From: a virus
Strand: one strand, 5' to 3'
IMG/VR virus record: IMGVR_UViG_3300008448_000504
Span: 1-27,059 of that record
Length of the DNA stretch: 27,059 nucleotides
Part shown: one piece after another, positions 1,660 through 15,189 of the stretch
Position numbering within the stretch: position 1 is the first letter of the stretch
Layout of the letters: each line of letters opens with the position of its first letter
Notes under the pieces: model-generated
The model's input: the letters and a program-made list of their open reading frames with translations, nothing else
Told to the model about the DNA's origin: nothing
Database searches by the model: none
Translations under genes and position numbers: made by a program

Positions 1660-2640
1660 TTACTTTTTGCGTTTCTTTTCCCATGCTACTGCATGAGCAA
1701 CAATATCTTCTAAACCGTAAACTGGTTCCCAACCAAGCACTTCCTTGGCTTTTGAAATGTCAGCCCACGTCTTTGCGGGATCACCCTGTCTTGCATTTTC
1801 TAAAAACATGCTAATAGTTTTACCGGTTTCTTTTTCTACTGCGTTGATAACTTCCTTAACTGAATAGGGCTTACCAGCGCCCAAGTTAAATGCAGCACTT
1901 TCGTTACCATCATCTAGATAGTTCATTGCATTAATATGTGCTCTAGCAATATCGTAAACATGCGTATAATCGCGTTCTGCTGTACCATCCTTAGTTGGAT
2001 AGTCGGTGCCAAATACAGGCACAGTTTCATCTGCTAACGCTCGCTGCACTACAATAGGAACTAGGTGCCCCGGAGGATCCTGTGTGTATCCGCACTGACT
2101 GTCTGGATCTGCACCTGCTGCATTAAAATATCTCAATGATACAAACTTCATATTACTGTATGCTTGCTCGTAGTCCTTGAGGATCATTTCAATCATTGTC
2201 TTACTGCGAGCATATGGGCTAATAGGCAGCATCGGATCTGTTTCTTTATTTGGATTGCCGCTAGTGCCACCATAGATTGAGCTTGAACTGCTGAAGATAA
2301 AGTTCTTTACACCTGCTGCTACAGCATGATTAAGCAGATTAATAGTATTAGCAACATTATTAGTGTAGTATCCTGCAGGGTCAATAAAACTTTCAGTTAC
2401 CTGATGAGTTGCAGCAAGATGAATAATAGTGTCGGGTTTAGTTAGTTGTAGAATGCCCTTGAGTTGATGATTGTCAATATCAAATGGATACTGATGTACC
2501 CCGGGTATTTCGCATTTCTTTCTATCAACATTAATAACATTATGCCCTGCTTGAACTAGCAGCCTACAAGTAAGGTTACCGATAAAGCCACTGCCTCCGG
2601 TTACTAATACTGTCTTTGGTTCTCGTTCAATGTTTTTCAT
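1660..2640 (-). CDS. galE: UDP-glucose 4-epimerase (GalE-like)
   Basis: This 326-residue protein is an extended short-chain dehydrogenase. The NAD-binding motif TGGSGFIG (Gly15, Gly18, Gly21) is at the N-terminus, a serine-rich SSSSSIYG segment is at 117-124, and the catalytic pair is Tyr143/Lys147 (YARSK). The motifs LRYFNAAGADP and DGTAERDYTHVYDIARAH are hallmarks of UDP-glucose/galactose 4-epimerases. Length is normal for the family. The start overlaps the stop of the glycosyltransferase gene as ATGA, so the two are translated together. The likely job is supplying a UDP-sugar for glycosylation of a surface or virion glycan. Confidence 0.9.
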   Translation of the reverse strand: MKNIEREPKTVLVTGGSGFIGNLTCRLLVQAGHNVINVDRKKCEIPGVHQYPFDIDNHQLKGILQLTKPDTIIHLAATHQVTESFIDPAGYYTNNVANTINLLNHAVAAGVKNFIFSSSSSIYGGTSGNPNKETDPMLPISPYARSKTMIEMILKDYEQAYSNMKFVSLRYFNAAGADPDSQCGYTQDPPGHLVPIVVQRALADETVPVFGTDYPTKDGTAERDYTHVYDIARAHINAMNYLDDGNESAAFNLGAGKPYSVKEVINAVEKETGKTISMFLENARQGDPAKTWADISKAKEVLGWEPVYGLEDIVAHAVAWEKKRKK

Positions 2641-3725: not shown

Positions 3726-4400
3726 TTATTTTCTATTACCAAAAAGTTGTAGCAAGTTTAAGAACAGGTTAATAAAGTCTAGATAAAGAGTTAATGCACC
3801 TGTAACTTCTGCATTACCTCTGTTATCAAACATAATCATTTCTCTGATCTTTTGTGTATCATAGGCTGTCAAACCTAAGAAAATAATTACAGCAAGAGCA
3901 CTGATTACCATTTGCATCAGTGTACTACCAATAAAGATATTGATAATACTTGCAATAATAATACCGATTAGACCTACAAACATAAATGACCCAACACTGG
4001 TTAGATCCTTTTTAGTTGTATAGCCGTATAGTGTCATTGCTAGGAACAAACATGCTGCTCCTAAAAATGCCTGTACAATACTTAGTGCAGTATATACAGC
4101 AAAGATAGTAGCAAAGCTCAGACCCATTAGTGCAGCAAAACCGTGCAGCATTAGTTGTGCAGTCTGTTTCGATGCTGTGGGCATCTTAAATGAAATAAAG
4201 AATACTGCGGCCAGCGGCGCAAAGATCACAATCCACTTGGTAATACCTGTAAAGAAGAAATTGAGTAATTCAGGACTATTACCAACAAAATAGCTTACTA
4301 GCATTGAATTAACTACAGCTAGAAACATATTTTGATAAACACGAGTCATTGCTGCGTTTACTTTAACTGCATCAGCTCTTACTGATTCTCTATAAAACAT
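3726..4400 (-). CDS. Bax inhibitor-1/YccA family membrane protein
   Basis: This 224-residue protein has about seven hydrophobic segments spread from residue 25 to the end. It carries the family signatures GLTAYDTQKIREM (176-188) and GALTLYLDFINLFLNL (201-216), which are very close to bacterial YccA/BI-1 proteins. Known members are integral membrane proteins linked to calcium leak and, in bacteria, to modulation of the FtsH protease. The phage copy is full length and looks recently bacterial. It has a good ribosome site (AGGAGA). A role in host membrane or protease control during infection is inference. Confidence 0.88.
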   Translation of the reverse strand: MFYRESVRADAVKVNAAMTRVYQNMFLAVVNSMLVSYFVGNSPELLNFFFTGITKWIVIFAPLAAVFFISFKMPTASKQTAQLMLHGFAALMGLSFATIFAVYTALSIVQAFLGAACLFLAMTLYGYTTKKDLTSVGSFMFVGLIGIIIASIINIFIGSTLMQMVISALAVIIFLGLTAYDTQKIREMIMFDNRGNAEVTGALTLYLDFINLFLNLLQLFGNRK

Positions 4401-5725: not shown

Positions 5726-6136
5726 TTATCTAAAATATGTTGGACCGTCTACTTGCCAATCATCTGATGGCTTTGGAAAGTCAATTTCGCAACCGTTTTC
5801 ATTATCTTCGGCTACGCTGATTTTTAGCCAACGATCAGGGAATCTACCCCTAATTGTTTTAGCTAAATCTTCTGCGATCATTTCGCAGCTCTTGTGATTC
5901 AGTTCTAGTACACCCTGACTGTACTGACGTTCCATCCAACGCTTGAACTGAATAAATTCAATGTCTCGATCATCGTGAAATACTTCGATCCAGACTTTGA
6001 AATGGAAAATGTGCCTGTGCGGCACACCTAGAAAACTTACATCGTCCCAGCCGCCTGTGGCTAACTTAGGATCAGTATCGGCACCCGGATACATATGGAT
6101 GCCTTCTTTTTGAAATGTGACCCAAATAGTTTTCAT
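5726..6136 (-). CDS. queD: QueD-like 6-pyruvoyl-tetrahydropterin / carboxytetrahydropterin synthase family protein
   Basis: This 136-residue protein can be laid on QueD/PTPS. His14, His40 and His42 (GVPHRHIFHFKVWIEV) match the zinc-binding F-x-A-A-H and L-H-G-H sites. DIEFIQFKRWM matches the substrate-side helix start. NHKSCEMIAEDLAKTI and SVAEDNENGCEI (Glu110) match the later conserved blocks. The Cys that normally stands a few residues before the H-x-H motif is absent; the only Cys residues are 84 and 116, so catalysis may differ. QueD makes 6-carboxy-tetrahydropterin from the FolE product, the second step to preQ0. It overlaps the membrane-protein gene by ATGA. The fold assignment is likely; the activity is uncertain. 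Confidence 0.62.
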   Translation of the reverse strand: MKTIWVTFQKEGIHMYPGADTDPKLATGGWDDVSFLGVPHRHIFHFKVWIEVFHDDRDIEFIQFKRWMERQYSQGVLELNHKSCEMIAEDLAKTIRGRFPDRWLKISVAEDNENGCEIDFPKPSDDWQVDGPTYFR

Positions 6137-6336
6137 TCTTTGTCCTTAGTCTCTTTTTCTCTTGCACGCCTTAACAGTTCTTCGTGGATTTCGTAATCGT
6201 AGTATTTGCCTGTTTCTTTTCTTAGACGATTGCGTTCAGAAATGTATTTGTTTGATTCAATGATAAACCAAGTTAGAATAGAAAAGAAAATAAATGCGGC
6301 TGTGCCTACCATTATATTAATAATAAGTTCAATCAT
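6133..6336 (-). CDS. Small single-pass membrane protein
   Basis: This 67-residue protein has one hydrophobic segment at about residues 3-27 (IIN...FFSILTWFII), followed by a highly charged, probably helical cytoplasmic tail rich in Arg, Lys and Glu. The start overlaps the stop of the preceding gene (ATGA) and the stop overlaps the start of the queD-like gene (ATGA), so it is locked into the operon. I recognise no family. Confidence 0.7.
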   Translation of the reverse strand: MIELIINIMVGTAAFIFFSILTWFIIESNKYISERNRLRKETGKYYDYEIHEELLRRAREKETKDKE

Positions 6337-6515
6337 TTCTTATACTCCTTTTCTATCTGTTCTAATTCTTCTGGAAACTTAGCGCCGCACTTTCTAACAA
6401 ATTTGATAAATTTGAGAAATACTTCTTGCAGATCCTGCTCAGTTTCTAGACTTTCAACCTCTATAGTTGTACTAACAATAACTCCATCATCATCACATTC
6501 TAATTTTATATTCAT
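6333..6515 (-). CDS. Unknown 60-residue acidic protein, possibly leaderless
   Basis: The frame encodes a small acidic protein (MNIKLECDDDGVIVSTTIEV...), with a beta-rich first half and a helical second half. There is no other Met, so the ATG at 6515 is the only good start. No Shine-Dalgarno precedes it; instead a sigma70-like -10 box ends 7 bases upstream. It is coupled to the next gene by ATGA. Function unknown. Confidence 0.6.
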   Translation of the reverse strand: MNIKLECDDDGVIVSTTIEVESLETEQDLQEVFLKFIKFVRKCGAKFPEELEQIEKEYKK

Positions 6516-6522
6516 ATATTTT

Positions 6523-6550
6523 ATAGTATTGCACTTTGGATAAAGGTCAA
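6523..6550 (-). promoter_or_regulatory. Sigma70-like promoter before the queD-like operon
   Basis: On the minus strand TTGACC (6545-6550) is followed after 16 bases by TACTAT (6523-6528). It overlaps the 3' end of the 172-residue gene and ends 7 bases before the ATG at 6515. Confidence 0.5.
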
Positions 6551-7065
6551 GTAATTACTTCATCCTTAGTGTATTTAGACCAATCCGTAAATTGTTCTCT
6601 GTTTTGTAGGCTGTGTAAGCTGTGACACCAAACACCCGGATTAGATTCTTTAAATCCTTTGTCGTCAATCTTAACTGTAGCATTATAATTGTATAATCTA
6701 ATATAGGGTAGCTTAACACTAATCATGGGGATGAAGTTATCATATTCATTCCAGCCATTATCGTGGAACCACGGATGATTAGCATATTTGCTGTCAAAAT
6801 CTAATGTAACCCAAATACCATCTTTTAGTAATCCGGTAACTAACTTATCCCAATTCTCCCATTCTTTCTCATTGGGCGCAAAACTTTGATTAGCACCTAG
6901 ATAGATATGTGGACATTTATTGTTTAACGCACGAGCTAAAATTTCTTCCTTGGGCTGTAGTCCTACAACAAACAGAGTTCTCTGTCCATATGCAGGTGTA
7001 TGCTCTACTTCAGTTCCAATAAAGAACTTTGTGCTATCGTCATGACCGTCTCTATTCTTCACCAA
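6547..7065 (-). CDS. Unknown 172-residue protein coupled to the dpdA-like gene
   Basis: The frame overlaps the 3' end of the dpdA-like gene by 14 bases, a strong sign of coupling. The protein starts with a polar segment and then shows FFIGTEVEHTPAYGQRTLFV (about 14-33), LFVVGLQPKEEI and WVTLDFDSKYA, alternating strands and helices that could be a small alpha/beta barrel fragment. There is no C-x3-C-x2-C cluster, so it is not a normal radical-SAM QueE. I do not recognise the family. Its position between the transglycosylase and the queD-like gene makes it a candidate extra component of a deazaguanine pathway; that is inference from context. Confidence 0.75.
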   Translation of the reverse strand: MVKNRDGHDDSTKFFIGTEVEHTPAYGQRTLFVVGLQPKEEILARALNNKCPHIYLGANQSFAPNEKEWENWDKLVTGLLKDGIWVTLDFDSKYANHPWFHDNGWNEYDNFIPMISVKLPYIRLYNYNATVKIDDKGFKESNPGVWCHSLHSLQNREQFTDWSKYTKDEVIT

Positions 7066-8608
7066 AGCCTCCCATCATTGCAGGATCAAGCATTTCTTCT
7101 TCTCTGCTAACAGTCTCGTCGTGTACTGCGGTTGACGCTTCTTCAAAGAAACTTGTATCGAGATGTGTTTCAGTAGCATAGCTACCAAAGCTAATTTCTT
7201 CTAGGAACTTGCTGTACTTGTCAATAAGTTCGTATGGGTTAGGACATGCTGGATCTAGCACTTCTTGTACGAAACTATCAAAGTATACCACACTATATGG
7301 AATATATGGGCTAAACTCGTTTGTTCCTTTATTGGTCTTGTCATTGATCCAATCACTGTAATGTACATTAGCGCGATACTTTTCCATATCAGCTAAACGA
7401 TTAGCTTCCTGAACCGCAGTGATATGATTGTACACGCTATGCGCCATATAGTAAAGGTAGCTCTGTGTATCCCAGCTTGTGCTTTCTTTAGTTTTTGCTT
7501 TATCGTTACGATCTAAATCACCCTCTTCCATGCAGCAGATATCACCTGCAACAAGGCGTTCCATAATCGGACCATTGAACGGCATAGGCAATGTGCTGCC
7601 CTTGAGCTTCTGATTATCAAATGCTCGGTTCATAAAGTAACCAAAACGCTTGGGCGAGAAGTAGTTGTAGCTGTAGCACTGACCGTATGCAGTATTCACA
7701 AACGGACTAGCTGCGTCAAAACTAATTGTAATATTAGGACTATCATGCTTACGAAGCATACGCTGAATGCTGGTAAGGTAGCAAGCCCAATTCAATTTAC
7801 CTGTACCAAGGAAGTGAATCCAACCCTTACCTTCTAAGAGACCATCTTCTCGTAACTTAAGAATACGCTTAAGGGCAATGGGCATATTACGCATGTTAAT
7901 ACCTGCGAAAGCATAGCCTTCTAGTGTGCGATCAGCATCACCATAATTGGCAGCAACAAACTTTGGATCACTAAAATGTTTTACACTTTCATACCAATCA
8001 TCTGCACTTTTTTGATCGGTACCTGAAAGAACATTAAGAAACTTAGTTTTTCCTGGTACACGATTGCGTACAAAATAATCTAAATTCAACATACTAATAT
8101 CAATGGTATCTTGAATCTTTGTAAGACCGGTTTTCTTATTGTATGGTGGAACGGCAGCAAAGCCTGGAATATCCAATGTCATTGCCCAGTCTGCTGTGTG
8201 TTCAAGCCAGCGTAGAATCTTTTCGCAAAGTTCTAAGCGACTTGGATCATTAGGATCTTTAGCGTTAGACCAATCAAGTTTTAGCACACCACTAGCAACC
8301 TGAAATCCACCGGAGTCGCCTAAGATAGTTGTTACATTTCGATCGCGCAATTGAACCATTGGCTCTTCGGTATCGCTGCGAGCAGGATCTAAGTGTGCGT
8401 GACCTGCCGAGTATAGTCCGTATGGATAATGGTAATAGGACTGATCCTTTTTAAGGAAATCAAGTCCTGCATTACCTAATTCAAACCCAGCTGGTGTACG
8501 CCAGTCACTAGGATTAGCTAGTGTCTTTTGTAGTTGCTTGGTATAGAAACTGCTGATAGCAGGCAAATATACCGCATAATCACTCTGACGCTTACCTAAA
8601 TCTTTCAT
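7052..8608 (-). CDS. dpdA: DpdA-like tRNA-guanine transglycosylase homologue (DNA deazaguanine insertion)
   Basis: This 518-residue protein has the transglycosylase core signatures. ILGDSGGFQVASG contains Asp98 and the DSGGFQ motif (98-103) that binds the base. ISFDAASPFVNTAYGQ contains Asp298 at the place of the nucleophilic Asp of tRNA-guanine transglycosylase. WAMTLDIPG (141-149), FAGINMR and IHFLGTGKLNW (264-274) fit other barrel strands. It is longer than bacterial Tgt and I see no C-x-C-x2-C zinc cluster, which suits the DpdA branch that puts 7-deazaguanines into DNA rather than tRNA. It lies 1 base after the clamp gene with AAAGGG as ribosome site, and folE and a queD-like gene are in the same operon region. 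The DNA rather than tRNA target is inferred from this context. Confidence 0.78.
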   Translation of the reverse strand: MKDLGKRQSDYAVYLPAISSFYTKQLQKTLANPSDWRTPAGFELGNAGLDFLKKDQSYYHYPYGLYSAGHAHLDPARSDTEEPMVQLRDRNVTTILGDSGGFQVASGVLKLDWSNAKDPNDPSRLELCEKILRWLEHTADWAMTLDIPGFAAVPPYNKKTGLTKIQDTIDISMLNLDYFVRNRVPGKTKFLNVLSGTDQKSADDWYESVKHFSDPKFVAANYGDADRTLEGYAFAGINMRNMPIALKRILKLREDGLLEGKGWIHFLGTGKLNWACYLTSIQRMLRKHDSPNITISFDAASPFVNTAYGQCYSYNYFSPKRFGYFMNRAFDNQKLKGSTLPMPFNGPIMERLVAGDICCMEEGDLDRNDKAKTKESTSWDTQSYLYYMAHSVYNHITAVQEANRLADMEKYRANVHYSDWINDKTNKGTNEFSPYIPYSVVYFDSFVQEVLDPACPNPYELIDKYSKFLEEISFGSYATETHLDTSFFEEASTAVHDETVSREEEMLDPAMMGGFGEE

Positions 8609-8609
8609 A

Positions 8610-9368
8610 TTAACCCTTTGCTGGTAGTAGGTATGTATACTCGCCTAGTCCGCTCAATACCTTAATCTGTAGCAAACCCTTGTTGTTGATGCTTAGTACG
8701 ATGTTTGCACTATCACCCAGGCGCAGGATCTTTAGCACGATGTCTAAAGGCCAGCGAAACTCGTGTGTGATATCGCCATCAACACCCTCTGCAATAAGAA
8801 TCTTTGTACGGTCACTTACACCATCACCAATGTGAAAGTACAGTTTGCCATCCTTGGTCTTTGGAGCAAAGTTAGCCTCATATGCACCAAGTACGCTGTT
8901 GAAGTAACCGAGATCCTTTAGGTTCTTTGCTGTTGGAATGATGTTAACATCAAACTCTGCACCCTTAAACTTGATTTCCTTTAACTGCTGATTAACAACA
9001 TCAGCGAGCATAAAGCGATAGTGTGCGTCAGTGCCGTCAGCAGCAACAAACTCAACTTCAACTGGAACATCTTCACCGTTACGATTCTGCGTTGTTACCT
9101 GAACAGTTGCACCTTCATCGTCAAACCCAGGATATTGCAAGTAGCCCTGCAACACGCCCATACGGCTTAGGCCGATAGTAGCGTCAACAAAGTCTGGTAC
9201 AGGGTTTACAGTCTTACCCTTAAAGATAACAGTCTTATCTCCGTCAACAGTTTCAACAGACGTTTCTTCCATTGTACCTGAGATTTTTACCATTTCAAAA
9301 ATACCCAAACTATGGGTATGCTTTAGCACATCCTTAAGGGTGTCTTTAATATAATTATTCTTAGCCAT
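8610..9368 (-). CDS. 45: Sliding clamp, T4 gp45-like
   Basis: At 252 residues this is slightly longer than T4 gp45. It shows the clamp pattern of two repeated beta/alpha/beta halves, starting with a helix (NNYIKDTLKDVLKHTHSLGI). DATIGLSRMGVLQGYL and FRWPLDIVLKILRLGDSANI are similar to phage clamps, and it ends in the strand-rich segment LLQIKVLSGLGEYTYLLP. The clamp encircles DNA and tethers the polymerase, and in T4 it also activates late transcription. It stands one small gene downstream of the polymerase and directly before the dpdA-like gene. Clamp loader genes 44 and 62 are not in the window. Confidence 0.85.
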   Translation of the reverse strand: MAKNNYIKDTLKDVLKHTHSLGIFEMVKISGTMEETSVETVDGDKTVIFKGKTVNPVPDFVDATIGLSRMGVLQGYLQYPGFDDEGATVQVTTQNRNGEDVPVEVEFVAADGTDAHYRFMLADVVNQQLKEIKFKGAEFDVNIIPTAKNLKDLGYFNSVLGAYEANFAPKTKDGKLYFHIGDGVSDRTKILIAEGVDGDITHEFRWPLDIVLKILRLGDSANIVLSINNKGLLQIKVLSGLGEYTYLLPAKG

Positions 9369-12397: not shown

Positions 12398-13075
12398 TTA
12401 TGTTATTTCTTTATCTATGTAGCTGATGGCCCGCTCGGCCCAACTAACGCTTTGACTAATAGTTAGATGACAACTTCTATCTGCAACAGGAATCTGTCGT
12501 TCTATTATACCATCGTGGAGCGCATCAAATTTTGATTTAGGAAGGAAATCTTTTTCCTCCATTGCTGATGCTGGCCCATCAACAATATACTTTAACCTAT
12601 GAACATAATTGGTATTACGCCAAATTGGAAATATATTATTGAATATAATAAAAGGCTTGTTTACTGACTTGCATAGATTAATAATGTGTTCTATATATAC
12701 TTCATTCTTTTTTAAATTAATAGGTATGCTACTTAAAAAAGGTAACATATCATTGGTGATGTACTTTTTTCTATATAACGCTGTAAGAGTATTACTTTCT
12801 ATGCTTTCACGCATTAGATTATATGTAGCAGGCACTAACTCACTATTATCTCTATGATCTATTTCTAAGCGGTCTATAGTAGTTAAACATACAACTAGTA
12901 ATTTGTAATCCAACTGACTAACAGCATGTTCAACTTGACACATAATATCAAAATTACTTACTGCGTCTTTGCCTAAACTAACATAAGAATCCTTGTATTT
13001 TTTTGAAACTTGATGCATCCAGTTCCAAGGATAATCGTCAGGTTGGCAGAAACTATCTCCACAAAAAACAATCAT
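12398..13075 (-). CDS. SGNH/GDSL hydrolase-like protein
   Basis: This 225-residue protein opens with MIVFCGDSFC, matching block I of SGNH hydrolases (Gly-Asp-Ser at 6-8). A strand with VVCLTTIDRLE takes the place of block III, and near the C-terminus VADRSCHLTIS gives the Asp-x-x-x-His pair expected of block V. SGNH enzymes are esterases or lipases, often acting on acyl groups of glycans. The classic Asn of block III is not obvious, so activity is uncertain. The start overlaps the stop of the upstream oxygenase gene (ATGA). It may act on a surface polysaccharide with its neighbours; that is inference. Confidence 0.6.
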   Translation of the reverse strand: MIVFCGDSFCQPDDYPWNWMHQVSKKYKDSYVSLGKDAVSNFDIMCQVEHAVSQLDYKLLVVCLTTIDRLEIDHRDNSELVPATYNLMRESIESNTLTALYRKKYITNDMLPFLSSIPINLKKNEVYIEHIINLCKSVNKPFIIFNNIFPIWRNTNYVHRLKYIVDGPASAMEEKDFLPKSKFDALHDGIIERQIPVADRSCHLTISQSVSWAERAISYIDKEIT

Positions 13076-13626
13076 TGGTATGCCGGACCAAGAATCAGAG
13101 TAACTAAACTTTCGCGCTGACCAGCTGTGATGTTTGTTACTTCGTGGTGTACAATACTTGGAAAAATTATAACGTCACCTAAATTTAATTTAAATGCTTC
13201 TCTTGGTGTTATTGAATCTAAGTTCAACTGGTTAACATCATTGGTATAATGAAAAACAATATCTCCACCCTGATAAGAGTTTGAGTCATTAAGGCCTACC
13301 ACAACTGTTAATTTTCTAGCAGGACTTTTAAACAAATTAGTTGTGCAAACGTCGTTATGTAAAACTGCACCATGGCCGCTATGATAAATCCCATAGGTAA
13401 ACGACTCAAACACTATCGGGTCAAAGATTTCTAAATTAAAATGATTTTTTGATTCTTTTATAATTTTAGATAATTTTTTAATAATGAACCCTGGTATAGT
13501 GCTAACATTAGCATGTTTACGAACAAAAGTATCGTCATGCTGATCAACAGCAGAACCAACACTCTTTTTAACTAGCAGTATCTCATCAGCTGAAAATACC
13601 GAATCAAATTTCGCTACCAGGGACAT
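13072..13626 (-). CDS. 2OG-Fe(II) oxygenase, prolyl-hydroxylase-like
   Basis: This 184-residue double-stranded beta-helix protein has the iron triad: His90 and Asp92 (LHNDV), and a distal His at 160 or 161 (VHHEV), followed by Arg171 (GQRESL), which would hold 2-oxoglutarate. LTVVVGLNDSNSYQGGDIVF and LNLGDVIIFPS are usual surrounding strands. Such proteins hydroxylate proteins, sugars or lipids. Substrate unknown. It is coupled to the SGNH-like gene by a 4-base overlap. Confidence 0.8.
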   Translation of the reverse strand: MSLVAKFDSVFSADEILLVKKSVGSAVDQHDDTFVRKHANVSTIPGFIIKKLSKIIKESKNHFNLEIFDPIVFESFTYGIYHSGHGAVLHNDVCTTNLFKSPARKLTVVVGLNDSNSYQGGDIVFHYTNDVNQLNLDSITPREAFKLNLGDVIIFPSIVHHEVTNITAGQRESLVTLILGPAYQ

Positions 13627-13901: not shown

Positions 13902-13970
13902 TTACCTCTTCTGTGTTGTAGTGTTAGTATATATTTCTAGCTGATCATTCCCGCTAGGAATAGTGGCGTT
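13902..13970 (-). repeat. Direct repeat copy A: shared 3' gene tail plus ribosome site
   Basis: This 69-base segment forms the end of the sulfotransferase-like gene and includes the ribosome site of the next gene. It aligns without gaps with 15193-15261. By hand count about 53 of 69 bases match, with the strongest part next to the stop codon. Both copies encode the tail I-P-x4-Q-L-x-I-Y-T-N-x-T-T-Q-K-(K/R). Confidence 0.75.
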
Positions 13971-14603
13971 GCTAAAATTAACCATTTCTTGATAATCTTT
14001 GAATTTGGTATATCCAAAGCAATTAAAATCTTCACCTGCAATCTCGTTTACAAAATTTATTATTGTGTCATCGTAGTATTTCAAAACTGACTTAATTGTC
14101 TCTTGTTCTGATACTACAGATGTGTATCTAGTACCTAGACCAGTTCTATCTATTCTAGAAAAACTTTTCAAGTCAACTCTGTAAACTGCTTTAACGTCTT
14201 CGACTAAATTTTCAAATTTAATTATGTGAAGTCCCCCAGTGATGCCATCAATCCAATTTGTGCATGGAGAGGTTATCCATGTTGGTCGAAGTTGAATGTT
14301 TAACATGAATTTTTTAAATTGTGGAATTGTAAATGCTTCAGGACTTTTATTTTCTTGGGCAGAACAAAATTGATAAAACAGTGACACATATCGTGTGTAC
14401 GGACATCTCACACTTACCGCACACTCAGTATCCATCGGAAGATTATGAGATTCAAATGTTTGATGTAATTTTGTAATATCTAATAAAAGATCTTCAAGTT
14501 TTAAATCTTTTAATGTAATGATTTTACTTAGTACCAGCGCATTAAAAATAGACGATCCGCCAGTTTTAGGTGGATGTAGAAAAAGGGGTCCGTTAAAATG
14601 CAT
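13902..14603 (-). CDS. Sulfotransferase-like protein
   Basis: This 233-residue protein begins with LFLHPPKTGGSSIFNAL, the PAPS 5'-phosphosulfate loop of the sulfotransferase family (KTGGSS). A later VSVRCPYTRYVSLFYQF matches the 3'-phosphate site (R-x-P-x-x-R-x-x-S). Sulfotransferases of this kind move sulfate from PAPS to sugars or proteins. The middle (IIKFENLVEDV) also fits the family. The last about 20 residues (QLEIYTNTTTQKR end) are nearly the same as the end of the unrelated 69-residue gene at 15193, see the repeat features. Substrate unknown. Confidence 0.65.
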   Translation of the reverse strand: MHFNGPLFLHPPKTGGSSIFNALVLSKIITLKDLKLEDLLLDITKLHQTFESHNLPMDTECAVSVRCPYTRYVSLFYQFCSAQENKSPEAFTIPQFKKFMLNIQLRPTWITSPCTNWIDGITGGLHIIKFENLVEDVKAVYRVDLKSFSRIDRTGLGTRYTSVVSEQETIKSVLKYYDDTIINFVNEIAGEDFNCFGYTKFKDYQEMVNFSNATIPSGNDQLEIYTNTTTQKR

Positions 14604-14628: not shown

Positions 14629-15189
14629 TCAATATGCCCAGCTTACTAAACTATGACGCACACCTCGAGTAACCACCCCAACTTTATGGCGATAGGTACT
14701 TGGAAAAATAATACAAGTACCGGGACTAGGTCTATCAAACACTTTGTTTTCAAAACATAGTTGGCCGCCTTCGTAGTTGTTATCTAACAGTATAGACATG
14801 GATAATTGACGAACATAGTCGATGCTGCTATAGCTGACAGCATCGATGTGCCAATCGAAGTGTCCTAAATCCTGTTCTGTATAACGCATGATACTAACAG
14901 TGGTTCTATCCCTAGAGTATTCTTTATTGAATAACTGTTTAGCCTCATCGAATAATGTATGAACTTGTTCAAACACATCTGAATGCTCATTCACAGACAG
15001 CCGCGCTTCTCGACATCTACGGGTGTTTGATATCGTAACAGTACCCTTGTCGTCAACTACAACTTCAGCTTTTTTAAAATGTATGTCGCTATTAAGGAGA
15101 AGTTCGATCATAGAAGAATCGAGAGCATTCTCTTTAACAAAGACATGCATGCCTTGCGGTAGACATGCTTTTTCTTCATTGACAATCAT
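14629..15189 (-). CDS. 2OG-Fe(II) oxygenase, PKHD-type
   Basis: This 186-residue protein has an intact iron triad: His114 and Asp116 (FDWHIDAVSY) and His168 (YRHKVGVV), plus Arg178 for 2-oxoglutarate. RQLSMSILLDNNYEGGQLCF and SPGTCIIFPS are textbook PKHD-hydroxylase strands. It likely hydroxylates a protein, glycan or nucleic acid group; the substrate cannot be told. Together with the sulfotransferase gene it is enclosed by the two copies of the 69-base direct repeat. Confidence 0.82.
   Translation of the reverse strand: MIVNEEKACLPQGMHVFVKENALDSSMIELLLNSDIHFKKAEVVVDDKGTVTISNTRRCREARLSVNEHSDVFEQVHTLFDEAKQLFNKEYSRDRTTVSIMRYTEQDLGHFDWHIDAVSYSSIDYVRQLSMSILLDNNYEGGQLCFENKVFDRPSPGTCIIFPSTYRHKVGVVTRGVRHSLVSWAY

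Follow-up and report, generated by a model that had tools for sequence, protein, structure and literature searches.

The window analysed here, a stretch of 27,059 bp, is the entire IMG/VR record IMGVR_UViG_3300008448_000504 and a fragment of a larger virus, whose T4-type DNA polymerase is closest to those of jumbo phages (42–46% identity; Phosso, Vibrio phage 2.275, Atu_ph07). The question raised by this locus is which modified base would be produced by a run of minus-strand genes around a dpdA-like gene, and what is contributed by a neighbouring gene for a protein of 171 or 172 amino acids (aa), here called p172. An original prediction, made from the letters of this DNA, had already proposed a 7-deazaguanine DNA-modification set of dpdA-like, queD-like and folE genes with p172 as an undescribed partner. 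Such a module is very probably present and is supported by an enzyme of the DpdA/tRNA-guanine transglycosylase (TGT) superfamily together with a real FolE. In addition, a glycosyltransferase (GT), a phosphoribosyltransferase (PRT) and a QueE encoded just off the window, all three overlooked at that time, have to be considered. The chances that the module is one without QueC and with an added sugar branch, carried by large T4-like phages, are evenly poised.

A conserved module around dpdA

The same gene set is found in many IMG/VR contigs, and searches seeded on p172, GT or the queD-like gene each return the same module, with at least 480–590 loci for each of the three families. Among 147 deduplicated IMG/VR loci spanning the module, the commonest order is clamp-dpdA-p172-queDlike-GT-PRT-folE-queE. 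GT is present in all 147 of them, p172 in 139 and PRT in 106, and the complete quartet of dpdA, p172, queD-like gene and GT likewise in 139. In a larger count, in which contigs recur between the seeds, p172 is accompanied by dpdA, GT and the queD-like gene in 176 of 176 spanned loci; a p172 family living mostly without dpdA, as had been considered beforehand, was thus not found. The genomic association of the module genes is strong. Furthermore, it is nested, with p172 occurring only where GT and the queD-like gene are present and GT only together with the queD-like gene. The resulting order (core pathway > queD-like > GT > p172) suggests successive steps with p172 as the last of them or as a partner of GT.

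Eleven named phages possess the queD-like gene. Five of these QueD-like phages also carry the GT (Phosso, PA5oct, ACP17, X1 and BUCT-ZZ01), and none of four phages with QueC does. Phosso, from Sinorhizobium, and BUCT-ZZ01, from Synechococcus, possess no p172, and the PA5oct group, with Pseudomonas phage Paride, has both GT and p172. Because X1, BUCT-ZZ01 and ACP17 have an enzyme of the DpdA2 type and PA5oct and Phosso a DpdA of the window type, the GT and QueD-like genes are common to both DpdA subfamilies; in Acidovorax phage ACP17 both genes, together with p172, are coupled to the DpdA subfamily different from that of the window. A relative of dpdA is also found in a preQ0-type phage, where p172, GT and the queD-like gene are missing.

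The 518-aa dpdA-like protein itself gave no match in sequence searches of Pfam, NCBIfam, PHROGs and PDB. As single-sequence and profile searches of the PDB were empty for both DpdA and the QueD-like protein, profile–profile and structure comparisons were used. With the AlphaFold2 model (pLDDT 84.6) as Foldseek query against the PDB, the top five matches are all tRNA-guanine transglycosylases (TGT/QTRT; best E=4e-6, probability 1.0). The protein profile is linked to that of phage DpdA2-type enzymes (ACP17, pf16, KVP40, Yut2) by hhalign (P=5.4e-7, probability 92), and the motifs DSGGF/LQ, LD-IP, HFLGT and SFD are in register in this alignment. The DpdA of ACP17 hits the model of the tgt superfamily with a score under the cut-off. 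Both motifs on which the original prediction relied, DSGGFQ and FDAASP, are present, and their aspartates (Asp98 and Asp298) are conserved without exception across 30 divergent homologues. The enzyme hence belongs to a divergent DpdA lineage within the TGT superfamily, and by analogy with the DpdA family its substrate would be DNA. In the closest contig of 92 kb (L004 8458–10014) dpdA is present as two open reading frames (ORFs) of 448 and 69 aa, interrupted by a single in-frame stop; the gene is intact in other contigs that are nearly identical.

The QueD-like protein and the predicted base

The QueD-like family is related to QueD (PF01242; profile comparison P=1.6e-5) and shares with it the T-fold similarity, the HxH zinc ligands and the glutamate position of the pterin site; zinc-type H14, H40 and H42 as well as E110 are invariant. 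Unlike QueD, it has an invariant Leu36 at the position of the catalytic Cys27, and Asp70-His71 of QueD (LDH motif) is absent from the alignment. Moreover, it coexists with a true QueD in 10 of the 11 named phages. The assumption that folE and the queD-like gene supply the first two pathway steps is therefore supported for FolE (PF01227) but not for the QueD-like protein. The folE gene had also been assigned to the interval 5726–8608, outside which it is actually located (377–1057).

QueC is without a match in 9 of the 11 QueD-like named phages, including the complete ACP17 and PA5oct, whereas X1 shows a match below the cut-off and that of D479 is only partial. Among the contigs and complete relatives with the module, none yielded a convincing QueC. 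QueC matches are present in the comparison phages 9g, KVP40, Vibrio 2.275 and, weakly, Yut2, and these do not have the queD-like gene. Judged from these sequences, the QueD-like family marks a pathway which would stop at 7-carboxy-7-deazaguanine (CDG) and not at preQ0. Since QueC is missing, preQ0, preQ1 and archaeosine (G+) are unlikely, which narrows the choice of the final base formerly left open, and the product is probably not derived from preQ0. With somewhat less confidence the QueD-like protein can be expected to act on CDG or on a product of CDG; it is perhaps a CDG-processing enzyme and a candidate decarboxylase.

Both queE and queC had been described as lying outside the window, and both are indeed absent from it. 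The queE gene starts just about 380 bp past the left end, as seen in the near-identical 92-kb contig (L004 17443–18366), in which the window's left edge is followed by a 74-aa ORF, a 184-aa ORF and queE. The radical-SAM cysteines, TGGEP and ETN are invariant in the QueE alignment. TIGR04508 is matched with E=7e-11, and the NCBIfam QueE matches are below the cut-off but the best of all families. Many radical-SAM genes, far beyond QueE alone, exist in several long module-bearing contigs, with up to 12 matches in one contig of 250 kb.

The proposed sugar branch, p172 and alternative explanations

The GT resembles the GT4 family (PF00534) in its C-terminal GT4-type region, but it represents a divergent subfamily, which in this analysis was encountered only in phages and is fixed beside dpdA and the queD-like gene. 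PF00534 is matched by 16 of 26 family members, and the relative in phage X1 lies above the Pfam cut-off (E=8e-12). Outside the QueD-like phages the family is restricted to four distant records among 50,697 phage records. A suspected resemblance of the C-terminus to the tRNA-queuosine mannosyltransferase QTMAN has no counterpart among the Pfam matches. That the GT acts on the modified base is conceivable with chances slightly short of even. The PRT profile has its best PDB match in the purine phosphoribosyltransferase 1vdm (E=5e-26), and two kinds of QueD-like phages, BUCT-ZZ01 and the Cellulophaga phiST group, are among its strongest phage matches (tblastn); the enzyme is a candidate for the salvage of guanine freed by DpdA. 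A distant GT relative of Xanthomonas phage PhiXhv-12 (L125 7800–8903) is situated in a cluster with an annotated deacetylase and glucosamine aminotransferase, which may represent a further hypermodification cluster.

The following route is proposed. FolE of the phage, QueD of the host or from elsewhere in the phage genome and the off-window QueE of the phage would convert GTP to CDG, and without QueC the phage would make no preQ0, preQ1 or archaeosine. From CDG onwards the chemistry, the sugar and the roles given to PRT and p172 are conjectural. The QueD-like protein may process CDG, most likely by decarboxylation. After replication the DpdA-family enzyme would exchange guanines of the DNA for the resulting base, and PRT would recycle the freed guanine. 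The GT4-like enzyme would then put a sugar on the modified base, a step that p172 may finish or support, unless it is a partner of the GT branch in another way. Taken as a whole, a sugar-bearing 7-deazaguanine made without QueC by means of a repurposed QueD paralogue, a divergent DpdA, a dedicated GT4 and p172, the latter either an enzyme of new fold or a partner in the last step, is a tentative proposal, somewhat doubtful in its entirety.

Several points weigh against this route. Six of the 11 QueD-like named phages have no GT, the GT of the window scores 20.4 bits where the Pfam cut-off is 26.4, and a distant relative with 27% identity occurs in Xanthomonas/Erwinia phages, where the one phage inspected has it in another kind of sugar cluster. 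In PA5oct p172 is located about 28 kb away from its dpdA. Furthermore, the sugar acceptor is not obvious, as plain 7-deazaguanine offers none and the carboxylate of CDG would give an ester. The association of the genes could also partly be that of a stable block inherited in one clade; yet ACP17, PA5oct, X1, BUCT-ZZ01 and Phosso are distant phages.

The alternative which survives best is that a base derived from CDG (dCDG or dDG) is inserted and left unglycosylated, with GT and p172 acting elsewhere, e.g. on virion or host glycans, as mere neighbours. CDG as an end point fits the absence of QueC, the six QueD-like phages without GT lack p172 as well, and the weak Pfam score of the window GT points in the same direction; unrelated glycosyltransferases are frequent in T4-like phages. 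Against it stand the presence of the GT in every one of the 147 spanned loci, its place next to dpdA or the queD-like gene in five named phages that are unrelated and differ in their DpdA subfamilies, and the restriction of its family outside the QueD-like phages to those four distant records. This explanation seems rather unlikely, although it deserves to be taken seriously.

For p172 the sugar branch is again the preferred place, a plausible assignment whose prospects fall a little below balance. The 14-base overlap with dpdA, as originally predicted, applies to the TTG start. In several orthologues the second codon is ATG, so that translation probably begins at the GTG at 7062, giving 171 aa and an overlap of 11 bases. 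The position between dpdA and the queD-like gene was correctly given, except that two small ORFs intervene. An alignment of 35 members contains 17 invariant columns, including E19, W72, P120, N128, D135, N142 and Y165. The AlphaFold2 model (pLDDT 90.4) has no match in the PDB below E=0.09, and its own ACP17 orthologue is the only match in BFVD.

Four other relationships of p172 were considered and not adopted. For a degenerate QueE or a DpdA half-barrel there is a weak Foldseek match to a QueE model (E=0.095), and profile comparisons with QueE, DpdA, DpdA2 and GT were empty. For a nucleoside hydrolase the matches to BcmB and DNPH1 have E values of 0.2 or worse. A 'glycosylase' in the p172 slot of Phosso is unrelated to p172. 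An orphan of 143 aa beside the GT of phage X1 (L117 5027–5458) has an IGIEVEG start like p172 and aligns in register (hhalign P=0.099), and is kept as a lead only.

A different role of p172, as a DpdA subunit for targeting or activation, with the gene overlap serving coupled translation, is unlikely. In many loci the p172 gene overlaps dpdA or lies immediately next to it, p172 is found in 28 of the 29 loci in which dpdA is followed by 700 bp or more, dpdA is never missing from the 176 spanned p172 loci, and in ACP17 p172 is directly upstream of DpdA. On the other hand, p172 does not accompany the DpdA-like proteins of Phosso, Vibrio phage 2.275 and six module loci, two DpdA subfamilies occur together with it, and the genes that strictly go with it are GT and the queD-like gene. 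The nesting and the dpdA-like genomes without p172 argue against an obligate subunit. Thus, p172 retains its predicted status as an undescribed module member, but not as a specific partner of dpdA.

It is improbable that the QueD-like protein still functions as QueD (6-carboxytetrahydropterin synthase) through a rearranged active site, which together with a host QueC would lead to DNA of the preQ0 type. Canonical QueD was not seen in long contigs of the clade of the window, and the protein retains one Glu and the histidines for zinc; but with Leu in place of the catalytic Cys, no LDH motif and the canonical enzyme alongside in nearly all named phages, the CDG-processing role is preferred. A modification of tRNA (queuosine-type) instead of DNA by the 518-aa protein and its set is very improbable, since, in spite of the common TGT fold and the tRNA enzymes as best PDB matches, the TGT zinc motif CxCxxC is absent from the protein, PF01702 (TGT) has no match in any module-member genome, the best profile link is to phage DpdA2, and later queuosine steps were not seen among the module genes.

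Known systems and remaining genes of the window

DNA modification with preQ0 or archaeosine is known from Enterobacteria phage 9g and from Vibrio phage nt-1, in which the DpdA2 family is tied to it (PMC6884629). The module has in common with these systems the clustering of FolE, QueE and a transglycosylase of the DpdA/TGT superfamily as well as the presumed replacement of DNA guanine (PMC6884629). In contrast to them it has neither QueC nor an amidotransferase, its DpdA is divergent, and QueD-like, GT, PRT and p172 are added. With the glucosylation of hydroxymethylcytosine in T4 the likeness is limited to the transfer of a sugar onto replicated phage DNA, and base, pathway and enzymes differ (PMC13216743). 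While DpdA-based 7-deazaguanine DNA is already known (PMC6884629), the searches brought up no account of a missing QueC in combination with QueD-like, GT, PRT and p172. Neither the module nor glycosylated deazaguanine DNA was found in the literature, with Cui et al. 2023 outside this comparison, and a term search for deazaguanine in papers on the phages MIJ3, Callisto and Paride gave nothing.

The known 7-deazaguanine modifications of phages are small ring groups. A glycosylated version, if true, would join two strategies of DNA shielding, guanine replacement and sugar coating, and resistance to different host nucleases would be expected. The module is present in phages cultured on laboratory hosts, and a functional hypothesis is gained both for a family of QueD paralogues and for the p172 family, which has no structural relative. 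Phage 7-deazaguanine pathways without QueC, giving dCDG and dDG and including DpdL as a CDG decarboxylase, were reportedly described by Cui et al. in 2023. The module seems to end likewise at CDG or a decarboxylated product, and the QueD-like protein may be, or act like, DpdL. To our knowledge, neither a glycosyltransferase nor p172 is part of those pathways.

In the window the minus-strand run (Table 1) leads from the sliding clamp via the dpdA-like gene, p172, two small ORFs and the queD-like gene to a gene for an Hc1-like protein, and continues with a weakly PhyH-like protein, a Bax1-I protein, GT, an epimerase, PRT and folE up to the left edge.

Table 1 Features of the minus-strand run (positions within the window)
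Feature	Position	Strand	Remarks
Sliding clamp	8610-9368	(-)	
dpdA-like, putative DNA guanine transglycosylase, 518 aa	7052-8608	(-)	Asp98 in DSGGFQ, Asp146 in LDIP, Asp298 (candidate nucleophile) in FDAASP
p172, alpha/beta protein, 171/172 aa	6547-7065	(-)	TTG start; probable GTG start at 7062
Two small ORFs between p172 and queD-like genes	6333-6515 and 6133-6336	(-)	
QueD-like T-fold paralogue, 136 aa	5726-6136	(-)	PHROG_17812 (function unknown)
Hc1 histone-H1-like protein, 59 aa	5534-5713	(-)	PF07432 E=8e-10
Bax1-I (Bax inhibitor-1) membrane protein	3726-4400	(-)	E=4.5e-55
GT4-like glycosyltransferase (GT), 361 aa	2637-3722	(-)	
NAD-dependent sugar epimerase	1660-2640	(-)	PF01370 E=6e-56
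Purine phosphoribosyltransferase (PRT), 155 aa	1157-1624	(-)	PF00156 E=7e-16
folE, GTP cyclohydrolase I, 226 aa	377-1057	(-)	Pfam PF01227 E=1.8e-62, 210 bits

The Hc1-like gene adjoins the queD-like gene, with a synteny limited to the close clade. The epimerase gene, also syntenic in the close clade, sits between GT and PRT in most close relatives, and a supply of sugar nucleotides is a possible role of its product. Outside the run, two genes for 2OG-Fe(II) oxygenases (PF13640) are located at 13072–13626 and 14629–15189, with a weakly sulfotransferase-like gene (13902–14603) between them.

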